Of a DNA stretch of 64,000 bases, positions 11,226 through 16,576 are shown in pieces; the first letter of the stretch is position 1, and each line of letters begins with the position of its first letter. Where the stretch lies: NCBI RefSeq assembly GCF_013376105.1, contig NZ_JAAMFM010000002.1, forward strand, positions 1 through 64,000, read 5' to 3'. The position numbers were made by a program, and so were the translations under genes. This DNA is from Arthrobacter wenxiniae (lineage in GTDB: Bacteria; Actinomycetota; Actinomycetes; Actinomycetales; Micrococcaceae). The notes below the pieces were generated by a model, which did not search any database, was not told the origin of the DNA, and saw only the letters and a program-made list of their open reading frames with translations.

Positions 11226-14200
11226 TCAACGGGAACTTAACGAGATCTCAACATCACCGCCCGGGGCCTGCCGGCGAAGTGCTGCCAGCCGTTGGCAGGC
11301 AATGACGCATCTCGTGCGGTCGAAAATCGCCGCAACCCTGTCAATTTCGCGGGCCGCCCGATCCGGGTCCCCGAGTTCATGTGACAGCTCGGCCACCATC
11401 AGCCGTTGCCAGCCGGCGAGTTTCGGCCATGGGGCAACCCTTTCGGCTGCCCGCCTGTACATCTCCCGTGCGGCCCGGACCTCCCCGGAGATTAGCTCCA
11501 CAGCCCCCAGAATCGTCAGGGTGGCGCTCATACCCACCTGGTCCCCCGCGGACTCGAACCTGGAGAGGCAGCTCCGGGCGTCGCCCAGGCCGCGGTCGAT
11601 GTCACCACCCATGGCGCGAAGCAGGGCGATGTTAAGCTCGGTCAGCAGCTCGCCCCGCCGGTCGCCCAGGCCGCGCCGGAGCTCCCGCGCCAAGGACAGC
11701 GCCCCAAAGGCCGCGCTTTGCCCGCCACCGTCGCGCAGAATGCAGCCAAGTTGGTGAAGTGCCTGCGCCCTGGCCAGGTCATCGCCCAGCCCGGCGAAGT
11801 ATTCGGCTGCCTCCGCGACGACGGACTCCGCCGACTGCTGGTCCCGCGACAGCCGGGAGGCGTAGCCGAGCGCGGCCAGCGCGTAGCCTTTGGCCTGGAT
11901 GACGCCGACCCTTCTGCCCAACAGCATGGTTTCCTCGAGGCAGGGTGCCAGCCGCCCGGCGATCGGGACCAGTTGCAGACTCGGGGTGATCACCGGCAGA
12001 AAGGCTGGAGTGGCGGTGTCTGACTGCGCGAGTTCATCCAGGCAGATGTTGAGGTGGCGGGCGGCGGGCGGTCCGTCCTCCCGGGCCAACGCGCACTGTC
12101 CGAGCAGCCAACTGCTGGCTGCGGCATGTTCGGCCCTGCCCCCTTCGACCGCCTCGGCGTGCTCGGCGGCTGCCAGCTGTTCGGCCTCCTCCAGGTCAAA
12201 GGTGCTCCAGGCGAGCGAGGTCTCAATGAGCCGGGCCATCACCACCTCGTCGGGTTCGCCGATCTGCCGCACGATCGCCAGGGCCTCCGCGCCGAGTGCC
12301 CGATGCCGGTCGCTGCGGCCCTGCCTGCTGTACAGGCCGGTCAGACCGATCAGGGCCGCCGCGCGGGGCCGGGTCGGGTCCGGCGCCACCGCCAAGGCAC
12401 GCTCGATCCAGCGCGCACCCTCCACCGCGTGGCCGCGGAGGAACCAGAAGCGCCACAGACTCGCGGCGAGCCGGAGCGCGGCCTCAGGCTCGCGCGCACA
12501 CGACCAGCGCAGTGCGGCGCGCAGGTTGTCGTGCTCGCTGTCGAGCAGCTTTGGCGCCTCGATGACCACCCCGGTGGCCTGTTCGGGATTGTGGGCAACG
12601 GCGAAGGCCAGGAAATAGGCGCAATGCGCTTCCGCCAGCCGGTCCGCTTCTCCCGCACGTTCGAGATTCTCGTGGCAATACTGGCGGACCGTCTCGAGCT
12701 GCCGGTAACGGGTCCCGCCGGCATTTCTTTCCGTGACCACCAGGGACTTGTCCACGAGCCTGGCCAGGAGCTCGAGCAGTTCGGTTTGTTGGAGGGGCGG
12801 GTCGGCGCAGACTGCCTCGACGGCGTGGAGGGTGAAACCACCGGCGAACACGGACAACCGGCGCACCAGCACCTGCTCCGGTCTTGTGAGCAGCGCGTGA
12901 CTCCATTCCAGGGTGCCGCGCAGCGTCTGGCGGCGCGTGGCGCCGGCGGGTCCGCCGCCCAGCAGGGACAAGGCATCGCCCAAGCGCTGCACGATCTCAA
13001 CGGGCTCAAGAACGGCGGTCCTCGCAGCGGCCAATTCCAGGGCAAGCGGCATCCCGTCGAGCCGCCGGCACAACTCGGCCACCCCCTGCGCATTGCCGGC
13101 GTCAAGGGCGAAACCCGGACGGACCCGGGCTGCGCGCTCCACGAAAAGCTGGACGGACGGCAGACGGCCAAGTTCGGCCAGGTCGGGGGCGCCGGCGCGG
13201 ACAGGCGGGGGAAGCGGCAGGGATGGGACCCTGAAGGTGAATTCCCCGTCAACATGGAGCGGCTCCCGGCTGGTGGCCAGCACTCTAACCCCAGGAGACC
13301 CGGAGAGCAGCGCGACGACGAGTTGGGCACAGGCCGTGAGCAGGTGTTCACAGTTGTCCAGCACCAGGAGCAGCGAGCGCCGCTGCAGCTGCCCGACCAG
13401 CATTCGCACACGGTCGGGTGCCGCGCCGGAGTCCAGCCCGAGGACCTCGGCCACGGCGTCCGCCACCAGCAGGGCCTCCCGGACCCCGGTGAGGTCCACG
13501 AACCAGACCCCGTCCACGTACCCGCGACGAACCCTCTTCGCGGCCTCCAGGGCAAGCCTGGTCTTGCCGCTGCCGCCGGCCCCGGTGAGAGTGAGCAGGC
13601 GTGCACGGCCCATCAGCCCCTCGACGTCAACGAGCTCACGCTGACGCCCGATGAAGCTTGTCAAGGGGGAGGGGAGATATCCTGTGGTGTCTTCCCTGCC
13701 GGCCGCGCCGTTGTGACCGGCCGCGCCGGCGGGCTTGCGGAGGGGTCCATCGGGCGGGGACCCGGTCAACAACTCGCGGAACAGTTCTGCGGTCCGGGCA
13801 TCCGGATCGGTCCCGAAGGCATCGAGGAGTTCCTCGACCAGCCGCTCATAGCGCGCCAGGGCCTCCGACCGCCGGCCCATTCCCGCCAGCACCGCCATCT
13901 GGGCGCGCACGGCCCCCTCGTGGACAGGATTGGATTCCAGGGCACGCGTGAGGATGACCAGGGCTTCCTCCGGTGCGCGCTGCGCCACCGTGGACGCCAG
14001 TTTCACCAGGACCTCGCGGTGTGCTTCCCGGAGCTCATCGCGCCGTGCCGCCAGCCAGTGGGCATCCGGCAGCTCGGGCAAGAGGTCGCCGCTGTACAGC
14101 TTGGCTGCCTCGCGCAGGCTGGCCTCGGAACCGGAGGCCAGCGCTGCCATGGCCGACCGTTCGAATTGGAGCACGTCGACGGCGATTGGTCCCGTGTCGT

Positions 14201-14510
14201 CCAGCACAACCATTTCACCGCGGATGGCGAGCAGGCCCTCACTTCCCGTGCCCAGCCCGGCGAGCGCTTGACGGGCGACGTACAGGGTCTGATGCAGGTT
14301 CCGCGCGGCCGCCGCGGGCTCCAAGACGGGCCACAGACGGTCCAATACCTGCTCGCGAGGGCTGCGCTGCCCCGGGGCCAGGGCCAGCATCGCCACAAGG
14401 GACTTTGCTTTCCGCAGCCGCCATCGGCCGTTCTCGACGGCGTTCCCGTTCACGCGCACGGTGAACGGGCCGAGCAGCTGAATGCGCAGCCCGCTGTGGG
14501 AAGGATCCAT
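11226..14510 (-). CDS. AfsR/SARP-type transcriptional regulator (BTAD, NB-ARC ATPase, TPR-like repeats)
   Basis: 1094 residues. An OmpR-like winged helix at about 8-100 (IQLLGPFTVRVNG opening) is followed by a bacterial transcriptional activation domain (about 110-250). An ATPase domain follows with P-loop GAGGSGKT (310-317), a Walker B-like LLLVLDNCEHLL, and VRVLATSREPL. From about 650 to the end Ala/Leu-rich helical repeats resemble TPRs. In streptomycetes such proteins activate secondary-metabolism and differentiation genes in an ATP-controlled way. Neighbours are the BBE oxidoreductase downstream and the divergent Gmad2-LysM/protease/inhibitor genes; either set could be the target. No biosynthetic gene cluster is present. 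Confidence 0.9.
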   Translation of the reverse strand: MDPSHSGLRIQLLGPFTVRVNGNAVENGRWRLRKAKSLVAMLALAPGQRSPREQVLDRLWPVLEPAAAARNLHQTLYVARQALAGLGTGSEGLLAIRGEMVVLDDTGPIAVDVLQFERSAMAALASGSEASLREAAKLYSGDLLPELPDAHWLAARRDELREAHREVLVKLASTVAQRAPEEALVILTRALESNPVHEGAVRAQMAVLAGMGRRSEALARYERLVEELLDAFGTDPDARTAELFRELLTGSPPDGPLRKPAGAAGHNGAAGREDTTGYLPSPLTSFIGRQRELVDVEGLMGRARLLTLTGAGGSGKTRLALEAAKRVRRGYVDGVWFVDLTGVREALLVADAVAEVLGLDSGAAPDRVRMLVGQLQRRSLLLVLDNCEHLLTACAQLVVALLSGSPGVRVLATSREPLHVDGEFTFRVPSLPLPPPVRAGAPDLAELGRLPSVQLFVERAARVRPGFALDAGNAQGVAELCRRLDGMPLALELAAARTAVLEPVEIVQRLGDALSLLGGGPAGATRRQTLRGTLEWSHALLTRPEQVLVRRLSVFAGGFTLHAVEAVCADPPLQQTELLELLARLVDKSLVVTERNAGGTRYRQLETVRQYCHENLERAGEADRLAEAHCAYFLAFAVAHNPEQATGVVIEAPKLLDSEHDNLRAALRWSCAREPEAALRLAASLWRFWFLRGHAVEGARWIERALAVAPDPTRPRAAALIGLTGLYSRQGRSDRHRALGAEALAIVRQIGEPDEVVMARLIETSLAWSTFDLEEAEQLAAAEHAEAVEGGRAEHAAASSWLLGQCALAREDGPPAARHLNICLDELAQSDTATPAFLPVITPSLQLVPIAGRLAPCLEETMLLGRRVGVIQAKGYALAALGYASRLSRDQQSAESVVAEAAEYFAGLGDDLARAQALHQLGCILRDGGGQSAAFGALSLARELRRGLGDRRGELLTELNIALLRAMGGDIDRGLGDARSCLSRFESAGDQVGMSATLTILGAVELISGEVRAAREMYRRAAERVAPWPKLAGWQRLMVAELSHELGDPDRAAREIDRVAAIFDRTRCVIACQRLAALRRQAPGGDVEISLSSR

Positions 14511-14627
14511 GGGCCTTCAGTATCCGCCCGCCGCCCGGCGTTGTCGACCACGGACCTGTCCCAAACTTCCCCTTGCCGGGGGCTCGGATTGGGCGCATCA
14601 TGGGGGAAGCTATTGGAGGGGGCCGTG

Positions 14628-15128
14628 ATGGTGGCACCACGATTGATTGAAGTCCGTCAGCCGCAACCAAACGACGTGATTGGGAAGAAATTCGTGATTG
14701 CCGGCCATGGCACCGGCTTTGAGGCGGTGGTGCGCTGGAAGGTCCTGGACAGCGCCGGGCACACCTTGGGGAGCGGCAACATCCAGGGTGCCGGTTCCAT
14801 GGGCGTCATCAAGGACTTCGGCAACACGGTCACGCTGGGAACCACGTCGGCCCGCGGCGCCCATGTGACCCTCCAGGTGTTCGGCGACGACCCATCCGGG
14901 CTCCACCCTCCCGGCCCCGACCTGAACATTGTCCACGTCACGCTGTTCACGTCGCTGGATGGCTTCAAGCTGTATGAGGTCAAGGGCGGGGACAACCTGA
15001 CCCGGATTGCCCAGCAGCAGGGCCAAAACACCACCGCCAACGACATCTTCGAAGCGAACCGGGACCGCATCAGCAACCCGGACCTGATCTTCCCCGGGCA
15101 AGTTTTCCGCATCCCGCTGCTCACCTGA
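14628..15128 (+). CDS. Gmad2 immunoglobulin-like and LysM domain protein
   Basis: 166 residues. Positions about 5-105 (IEVRQPQPNDVIG through NIVHVTLF) match the Gmad2 immunoglobulin-like fold that accompanies export or germination proteins. Residues about 115-165 are one LysM domain (YEVKGGDNLTRIA ... IFPGQVFRIP), which binds glycan chains of peptidoglycan. There is no signal peptide or lipobox, so export, if any, is by an unusual route. GGAGGGGG lies 7 bases before the ATG; a GTG one codon earlier is possible. It is followed after 60 bases by the M4 protease gene and is divergent from the AfsR-like regulator (117-base gap). Confidence 0.85.
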   Translation: MVAPRLIEVRQPQPNDVIGKKFVIAGHGTGFEAVVRWKVLDSAGHTLGSGNIQGAGSMGVIKDFGNTVTLGTTSARGAHVTLQVFGDDPSGLHPPGPDLNIVHVTLFTSLDGFKLYEVKGGDNLTRIAQQQGQNTTANDIFEANRDRISNPDLIFPGQVFRIPLLT

Positions 15129-15188
15129 CAGGCCCGCCGTGCCTGCTGAACCACCGTCATTGGCAACGCCTATGGAAGGGACAAGTTC

Positions 15189-16268
15189 ATGTCAAGGAAC
15201 CATCGCCGGGCGCAGTGCGGAATTGCTCCGCCGGACCTGCTGGGGCGGCTGGCGGTCGAGGGGGATGCCCAACAGCGGGAGGCCGCGGTCCGCGCCCTGG
15301 CCACCTCCGCCGCGATCCGTTCCCAGCGGGCCGTCATGGGCCGGCTCAACCGCCAGCTCAACTTGAACCTCGGGCAGATGATCGGTTTCACTGTTAACCC
15401 GGACCGACGCCTGACGATCTACGACAACCAGACCAACGGCAGGACATTCCTGCCCGGAGTCCGCGTCCGGGACTGGGGGCAGCCGCCGGTGCAGGATGAG
15501 GCTGTCAACCAGGCCTACGACGGCAGCAGCGCAACGTACGAATTCTACCGCGATGTGTTCGCGCGCAATTCCCTGGACGGGGCAGGGCTGGAACTGGTCT
15601 CCTCAGTCCATTACGGCGTTGCCTTCGACAACGCGTTCTGGGACGGCGCCCAGATGGTTTACGGCGATGGCAGCGGCCGGATCTTCCAGGTTGGCGGGCT
15701 GACCCGCTCCCTGGACGTCATTGCCCATGAGCTCACCCATGGCATCACCGAACTCACCGCGGGGCTGGTCTACAGCAAGCAGTCGGGCGCGCTGAATGAA
15801 TCCTTCTCCGACGTCTTCGGCTCGCTCGTCAAGCAGTACAGCCTCAAGCAGTCCGCGGCCGACGCCGACTGGCTGATCGGGGAAGGGATCCTGGTACCCG
15901 CGCTGGGCAAGGCGCTGCGCTCCATGATCAACCCGGGCACCGCCTATTCAGGCGACCGGCAGCCCGGACACATGGACGACTACGTGGACCTGCCGGACAA
16001 CAACGACCCCCGCAATGACAACGGCGGCGTGCACATCAACTCGGGCATCCCCAACCATGCCTTTGCCCTGGCGGCCAACGCCCTCGGTGGTTTCGCCTGG
16101 GAAAAGGTGGGAAAGATCTGGTACACGGTGCTGACCACCCGGCTGCGCCCCAACTCGCAATTCGATGAGGCCGCGCAGGCCACGGTCGACGTCGCCGGCA
16201 CCCTGTTCAGCGCCACGGAGCAGGACGCCGTCCACAACGCCTGGAAGGAGGTCGGGGTCCTTTCATGA
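15189..16268 (+). CDS. protealysin-like M4 (thermolysin family) metalloprotease
   Basis: 359 residues. A short N-terminal propeptide contains GIAPPDLLGRLA, matching the PPxxL element of protealysin precursors rather than the long FTP/PepSY propeptide of secreted thermolysins. The catalytic zinc site is His180-Glu181-Leu-Thr-His184 with Glu204 in LNESFSD as third ligand; VHINSGIPNHAF supplies the downstream active-site His. There is no signal peptide, as in protealysin itself, which is cytoplasmic or released by another route. It overlaps the inhibitor gene by ATGA, so protease and inhibitor are probably made in step. Confidence 0.92.
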   Translation: MSRNHRRAQCGIAPPDLLGRLAVEGDAQQREAAVRALATSAAIRSQRAVMGRLNRQLNLNLGQMIGFTVNPDRRLTIYDNQTNGRTFLPGVRVRDWGQPPVQDEAVNQAYDGSSATYEFYRDVFARNSLDGAGLELVSSVHYGVAFDNAFWDGAQMVYGDGSGRIFQVGGLTRSLDVIAHELTHGITELTAGLVYSKQSGALNESFSDVFGSLVKQYSLKQSAADADWLIGEGILVPALGKALRSMINPGTAYSGDRQPGHMDDYVDLPDNNDPRNDNGGVHINSGIPNHAFALAANALGGFAWEKVGKIWYTVLTTRLRPNSQFDEAAQATVDVAGTLFSATEQDAVHNAWKEVGVLS

Positions 16269-16576
16269 AGCTGACAATCCGCAGGGGAGGCGGCCTTGCG
16301 GGCATGGTGGCGCAGACCGAACTTGACGACCGGTCCCTGCCGAAGACCGATGCGGAGGCCTTTGCCGGGGAAGTTGCCCGCGCCAACCTCCACGAACAGC
16401 CCGAGCCCGCCGCCGCCAAACCGTGGCCGGATGCCCAACTCTACGAAATCCTCCTGGAGGCGGCGGGACCGCCCATCAGCGTCCATTACACGGACGAGAC
16501 CCTGCCCGAATCCGTCCGGCTGCTCGTGGCGTGGGTGGACGGGCGACCCGAACGCGTGGAATCGATCGAACAGTAG
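16265..16576 (+). CDS. emfourin-like inhibitor of the adjacent M4 protease
   Basis: 103 residues, no signal peptide. It opens KLTIRRGGGLAGMVAQTELD and contains PWPDAQLYEILLE and a DETLPESVRLLV segment. This is the layout of emfourin, the small inhibitor encoded next to protealysin in Serratia. The ATG overlaps the protease stop (16265-16268). By analogy it binds the mature protease in the cell and prevents self-digestion. The assignment rests on size, partner gene and remembered family pattern, not on an alignment. Confidence 0.75.
   Translation: MKLTIRRGGGLAGMVAQTELDDRSLPKTDAEAFAGEVARANLHEQPEPAAAKPWPDAQLYEILLEAAGPPISVHYTDETLPESVRLLVAWVDGRPERVESIEQ

Follow-up and report, generated by a model that had tools for sequence, protein, structure and literature searches.

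A leaderless Gmad2-LysM protein encoded before a protealysin-emfourin pair in Arthrobacter wenxiniae: a possible toxin, immunity and carrier module

Three consecutive plus-strand genes of Arthrobacter wenxiniae, which we call G, P and E, encode a Gmad2-LysM protein, a protealysin-like metalloprotease and a putative inhibitor of the emfourin family. They lie in a stretch of 64,000 nucleotides (contig NZ_JAAMFM010000002.1, positions 1 to 64,000; the window), and none of their products carries a hydrophobic leader. The trio recurs in the same order in a second genus, there behind the gene cluster of an extracellular contractile injection system (eCIS), and G shares a promoter-like motif with P genes of relatives in which no G adjoins. 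Tentatively, we read G-P-E as a module of toxin, immunity protein and carrier that would be freed by lysis or loaded onto an eCIS, where the loading and the carrier role are what we infer. The genome of the window is labelled G000, its genus g1 (23 genomes) and the second genus g225 (5 genomes).

Table 1. Features at the G-P-E locus, in window coordinates.
Feature	Coordinates	Strand	Start and stop codons	Support
AfsR-like BTAD/NB-ARC regulator, divergent neighbour	11226..14510	-		PF03704 and PF00931 above cut-off
Promoter-like motif TTGCC-N17-GCATCATG-NN-GGAA, 19 nt before the G start	14573..14608	+		matrix score 35.3
G, leaderless Gmad2 and LysM protein, 166 aa	14628..15128	+	ATG 14628; stop 15126-15128	Pfam PF10648 and PF01476 above cut-off
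P, protealysin-like M4 metalloprotease with short PPDLL propeptide, 359 aa	15189..16268	+	ATG 15189; stop 16266-16268	PF02868 and PF01447
E, emfourin-family inhibitor (putative), 103 aa	16265..16576	+	ATG 16265; stop 16574-16576	PF20242

Coordinates and frames bear out the preliminary description of three consecutive genes, the last two overlapping by ATGA: the start of E precedes the end of the P stop codon, so that both genes share 16265-16268. A GGAGG lies upstream of the G start, and 60 bases separate the G stop from the start of P. The absence of signal peptides, already noted in that description, agrees with our leader calls, which were made by Kyte-Doolittle hydropathy alone; the highest 15-residue means within the first 55 residues are 0.92, 0.71 and 0.47 for G, P and E, respectively. 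Between the AfsR-like gene and G there are 117 bases (14511-14627), and the motif is found on the G side of this interval. The AfsR-like regulator probably stands outside the G-P-E unit.

Profile searches place the three proteins in the Gmad2, LysM, M4 and emfourin families proposed earlier, all above the Pfam cut-offs. P matches Peptidase_M4_C with 178.7 bits (cut-off 24.4) and Peptidase_M4 with 96.6 bits (cut-off 22.4). Protealysin-like M4 enzymes have a short PPxxL propeptide in place of the long one of thermolysin; in P, PPDLL occupies residues 14-18 and Pfam gives no FTP match. The best solved relative is 2vqx (1.4e-84, aligned over query 13-357), which we take to be the protealysin precursor, and since the match begins at residue 13 it includes the short propeptide. 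The translation of P also contains the zinc motif HELTH and the glutamate motif NESFSD, as first described. The eCIS_core domain (DUF4157), which is frequent but not universal in or beside eCIS toxins, was not found in P by Pfam. E matches Emfourin with 53.6 bits (cut-off 27) over profile positions 1-90 of 91 and is the sole emfourin match of the window's genome in the profile search; no solved relative of E was found by sequence.

The pairing of P with E is already known and common. According to the available text of PMC9505478, protealysin and emfourin share one operon in Serratia proteamaculans, as the preliminary description had stated, and the protease acts intracellularly on FtsZ. The same text reports less FtsZ and lower viable counts in Serratia without emfourin; its authors assume a role in competition, and a dedicated delivery machine is not named in it (PMC9505478). 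Emfourin is present in 124 of 395 family genomes and in 17 of the 23 g1 genomes, and a near-complete close P adjoins it at 16 of 19 g1 emfourin loci. The pair is also found on plasmids: 15 plasmid records cover at least 80% of P, and three of the four examined (Caballeronia, Streptomyces, Nostoc) carry the label 'protealysin inhibitor emfourin' beside an M4 gene, the fourth, another Nostoc record, having no such label. On contig C87 of the g1 genome G021 (loci L017 and L019), two diverged emfourin-like matches lie about 0.5 kb apart, with no close protealysin adjoining.

G combines Gmad2 (50.7 bits, cut-off 25.7) with LysM (44 bits, cut-off 20.9); up to an E value of 1 Pfam gives these two domains alone, and no BON domain was found. 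Its short N-terminus is common to its relatives, and no hydrophobic leader that could serve as an export route was found by Kyte-Doolittle analysis. In the AlphaFold2 model of G (mean pLDDT 83.6), an all-beta part is followed by a tail in which strands flank two helices, and this tail looks as expected for a LysM domain. Among solved structures, the nearest LysM is that of Kbp (7pvc, 8.7e-17), and LysM domains of solved wall-binding proteins match more weakly. With the Kbp LysM as its nearest match and no leader of its own, G is at most a candidate for wall targeting. Potassium sensing, a candidate suggested by the likeness to Kbp, was dropped since Kbp binds potassium in its BON domain, as the accessible part of PMC9481166 describes, and this domain is absent from G. 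An origin of G from mobile elements was also rejected. None of the 15 plasmid records matching G covers 80% of it, and the matching places listed are stretches of LysM; of 84 viral-contig stretches that matched a pattern none encodes a relative. PHROGs matches of G are confined to its LysM part.

Full-length relatives of G occur in at least 22 of the 395 family genomes; among the matches listed, 10 genomes hold a close relative (57% identity or more) and 12 a distant one (31-41%). At order level, a G profile found full-length matches in 6 of 396 genomes. The order G-P-E is found at 4 of 22 full-length-G loci among the matches listed (the window, G410, G426 and G370). Of the 395 family genomes, four thus carry the trio, three of them among the five of g225. 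Because the order is the same in three genomes of another genus, we consider the arrangement to be more than chance. The three genes form a real unit, as the preliminary description had put forward, and the motif common to G and P, present even where the two are unlinked, strengthens this view; their co-occurrence is not conserved within g1, where G adjoins the pair in only one of 17 emfourin-bearing genomes; conservation of the trio throughout g1 was therefore rejected. In g1 taken alone, G is associated neither with emfourin (p 0.27) nor with sheath genes (p 0.43), and in the g1 genomes G016, G018 and G021 it is located away from any P. At the 12 distant G loci among the matches listed, neither P nor E lies within 1.5 kb, and no protease was seen near G in the eight loci inspected gene by gene. 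Wider neighbourhoods of 11 g1 relatives show P-E beside folD in eight, as in the window; G016 and G018 carry a diverged pair at another site, and the emfourin locus of G021 has no close P. The genomic site of the g225 trio differs from the folD site of g1.

A second line of evidence is the promoter-like motif, which was seen in aligned upstream regions both before P in pair-only g1 genomes and before G. A matrix of 36 positions was trained on 10 P sites from relatives without an adjacent G. Applied to the upstream regions of G, it scores 35.3 in the window, 29.1 in G410, 25.5 in G018, 23.6 in G370, 23.3 in G426, 19.9 in G016 and 16.4 in G021. The first of two G copies in G321 scores 21.2, with no further site assignable to the second copy, and the matrix misses G391 (-8.1) and G685 (-4.8). 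Eight of the 11 close G copies, some of them in genomes where G and P are unlinked, exceed every one of 592 background upstream regions (maximum 10.1; some regions are repeated and loci overlap). All eight distant G upstream regions tried score below 0. On the side of the protease, the motif precedes 11 of 11 pair-only P genes of the main clade, 10 of which trained the matrix, and the four P genes outside that clade (G004, G005, G016, G018) score 6.7 or less.

The specificity of the motif was gauged by scanning all collected sequence (1.58 Mb with overlaps). Other sites exceed 13; the best reach 26.2, 22.1 and 18.0, all three in loci chosen for matching the pattern, and two more reach 17. Since other sites outscore it, the G021 site, the weakest of the eight before G, is not beyond doubt. 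In whole-genome pattern searches the matches outnumbered those of the reversed control 2- to 15-fold, and this held too for G391 and G685, where no motif precedes G; mismatched matches are therefore mostly not this promoter. Exact matches elsewhere are found, among the matches listed, which do not include those of the window's genome, in G006, G007, G410 and G426. In G001 every site but the P promoter has two or more mismatches to the longer pattern. In loci searched with a stricter pattern, eCIS genes showed no motif. G321 has the motif before G, yet its genome yields no emfourin match; the motif thus probably belonged to G first, with P-E joining under it.

A hint of a delivered function comes from g225. 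In all three trio genomes of this genus an eCIS cluster of like gene order precedes G-P-E, and an AAA_16-GerE regulator follows. The G426 cluster, which spans about 28 kb and precedes G, encodes two sheaths, two tubes, hub, spike, two eCIS_core proteins, gp25, baseplate J, Tail_P2_I and an AAA ATPase, with other genes interspersed; two genes, each without a Pfam match, then lead to G, P, E and the regulator. Its two eCIS_core proteins (1148 and 759 aa, domain N-terminal) are encoded about 13-19 kb upstream. This eCIS of G426, with its duplicate sheath and tube genes and its eCIS_core proteins, lies at L129:13447-18205 and on L130. The eCIS genes were checked with Pfam in G426 and by BLAST against G426 proteins in G410 and G370, where the order is the same with two exceptions: G370 has no called gp25, and both genomes differ more from G426 in the eCIS_core region. 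The gap between the last cluster gene and G measures 0.35 kb (G426), 2.6 kb (G410) or 4.0 kb (G370) and holds small called genes.

The genome of the window has an eCIS of its own on another contig, C78 (L151, L152), where Pfam confirms sheath, tube and AAA ATPase. G003, G006 and G017 have similar clusters, and G004 has the beginning of one. Family-wide, sheath genes occur in 35 of 395 genomes, in 6 of the 10 close-G genomes versus 29 of 385 others (p 5e-5, a value that ignores kinship). For emfourin, 107 of 124 bearing genomes in the family have no sheath match, and outside g225 we saw by eye no emfourin-sheath pair on one contig within about 0.6 Mb, most being on different contigs; within g225 the comparison gives p 0.10 in a group of 5 genomes, too small to decide. 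The earlier idea of a released weapon with built-in self-protection fits the eCIS context in g225; in the window the module is not beside an eCIS. A survey of eCISs, in the text accessible to us, describes toxin genes as tending toward the 3' end, BTAD and GerE genes as regulators and LysM as a shell domain; antibacterial eCIS toxins are said there to be mostly without recognisable immunity genes, and how producers survive the synthesis and loading of such toxins is called a mystery (PMC8213781). Peptidases account for 46 proteins, or 2%, of eCIS toxins in the corresponding part of PMC11297309.

G also keeps company with other enzymes. In G685 (L111:7232-13135), genes for an M36 protease, an M28 peptidase and a trypsin plus non-specific nuclease (trypsin-nuclease) form a same-strand run with G last, possibly a second delivered enzyme set. 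The tandem G copies of G321 (L112:2760-7647) have genes for a BTAD regulator, a subtilisin and a PG-binding matrixin in their vicinity; the subtilisin gene is followed by an overlapping 76-aa ORF without a Pfam match. In the first residues of the G685 and G321 proteases no leader was seen, as judged by eye. No protease was seen directly beside G in G391, G016, G018 and G021, the G018 contig ending soon after G. BTAD or LuxR-type regulators are found near G in g225 and in G321. The divergent AfsR-type gene of the window, proposed at the outset as a possible controlling gene, found no support as a dedicated regulator, with no homologue among the genes called in 20 neighbourhoods. An FAD oxidoreductase occurs near G both in the window and in G018; it was set aside as a coincidental neighbour, since this is a common family and the AfsR-type gene intervenes in the window. 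A role in phage defence was likewise discarded: PADLOC gave no convincing match, the best E values being 0.0073 (P) and 0.0023 (the regulator).

How the trio was assembled can be followed in part from trees. P of the window groups within the g1 clade (12 rows, 99/99), which the g225 P joins with moderate support (15 rows, 85/84). In a tree of flanking proteins G000 and G006 are sisters (100/100), and G006 is without G. From the two trees it follows that either an old operon lost G two or more times or G joined the pair two or more times. The counts tie, and the shared motif favours the old operon. No remnant of G was detected in pair-only leaders, all six leaders scored falling below the best of 200 shuffles.

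In the module that we tentatively propose, G, P and E would be co-transcribed from the motif before G, and P would be produced as a cytosolic zymogen. E, translated right behind P, would bind the matured enzyme and so protect the producer. G would act as a leaderless Ig-like and LysM carrier, a partner of leaderless proteases, which may either help to load P onto the phage-tail-like particle (eCIS) or hold it at wall fragments or targets after lysis of the producer. P would then cleave proteins in cells without E. In g225 the module stands at the 3' end of the eCIS cluster, where a cargo set would be expected; since the eCIS of the window's genome is on another contig, delivery would there proceed in trans or by lysis. 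A more far-reaching version seems doubtful: a new contractile-injection cargo module, with a leaderless thermolysin-family protease, its inhibitor as immunity protein, a Gmad2-LysM carrier serving several leaderless proteases of unrelated families (M4, M36, M28, trypsin-nuclease, perhaps subtilisin and matrixin) and a dedicated promoter kept by P-E pairs without G. With a protease and a known kind of inhibitor at the end of an eCIS, producer self-protection becomes testable with defined parts. If true, the proposal would show how a protealysin-type enzyme can be delivered, and it would give leaderless Gmad2-LysM proteins their first role.

Ordinary intracellular proteolysis is nearly as likely as such a delivered module. 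P-E would then be a protealysin-type switch for trimming proteins of the cell itself under stress or in stationary phase, G a cytosolic stress protein with the same promoter, and the proximity to the eCIS in g225 a chance relocation. That the pair is common without G or eCIS, that distant G relatives stand alone and that the LysM of G is nearest to Kbp's all speak for it, as does the cleavage of FtsZ inside Serratia cells described in the available text of PMC9505478. Against it speak the like eCIS clusters before the trio in three of three g225 trio genomes, the other leaderless proteases that G joins in G685 and the lack in G of the BON domain to which the accessible text of PMC9481166 assigns potassium binding.

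An improbable alternative, put forward in the preliminary description, is an enzyme targeted to the wall: after lysis, G would bind peptidoglycan through its LysM and keep P on the walls of neighbouring cells or of the producer, which would be remodelled. The LysM match above the cut-off and the weaker matches to solved wall-binding domains agree with this idea, against which count the missing leader and the closer likeness to Kbp; we know of no export route for G. Least probable of all is that G merely landed upstream of the pair with no functional tie. Its position beside the pair in just one of the emfourin-bearing g1 genomes would be expected in that case, but the same order at a different genomic site in the second genus and the presence of G's motif before P in 11 relatives without an adjacent G argue against it.

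Among the titles and abstracts listed from the open-licence literature, we found no description of the trio, its eCIS link or the shared motif, nor any that brings emfourin, protealysin or Gmad2 together with injection systems, in line with the first impression that the link to a Gmad2-LysM protein had not been described. Three known systems offer points of comparison. Kbp/YgaU (BON-LysM) has the closest solved sequence to the LysM of G, but Gmad2 occupies the place of its BON domain. The operon of Serratia proteamaculans resembles the window in that an M4 protealysin-type protease gene is followed by an emfourin gene; in the window, P has the PPDLL propeptide and no leader, E overlaps P by 4 bases and G stands before the pair, whereas LysM proteins (0 occurrences) and eCIS go unmentioned in the available text of PMC9505478. 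Compared with eCIS-associated toxins, P is without eCIS_core and the window's module lies away from its eCIS. The g225 arrangement nonetheless resembles this class as portrayed in the accessible parts of PMC8213781 and PMC11297309, with an enzyme gene at the eCIS 3' end, a GerE regulator near it, and peptidases already among the members of the class (PMC11297309).
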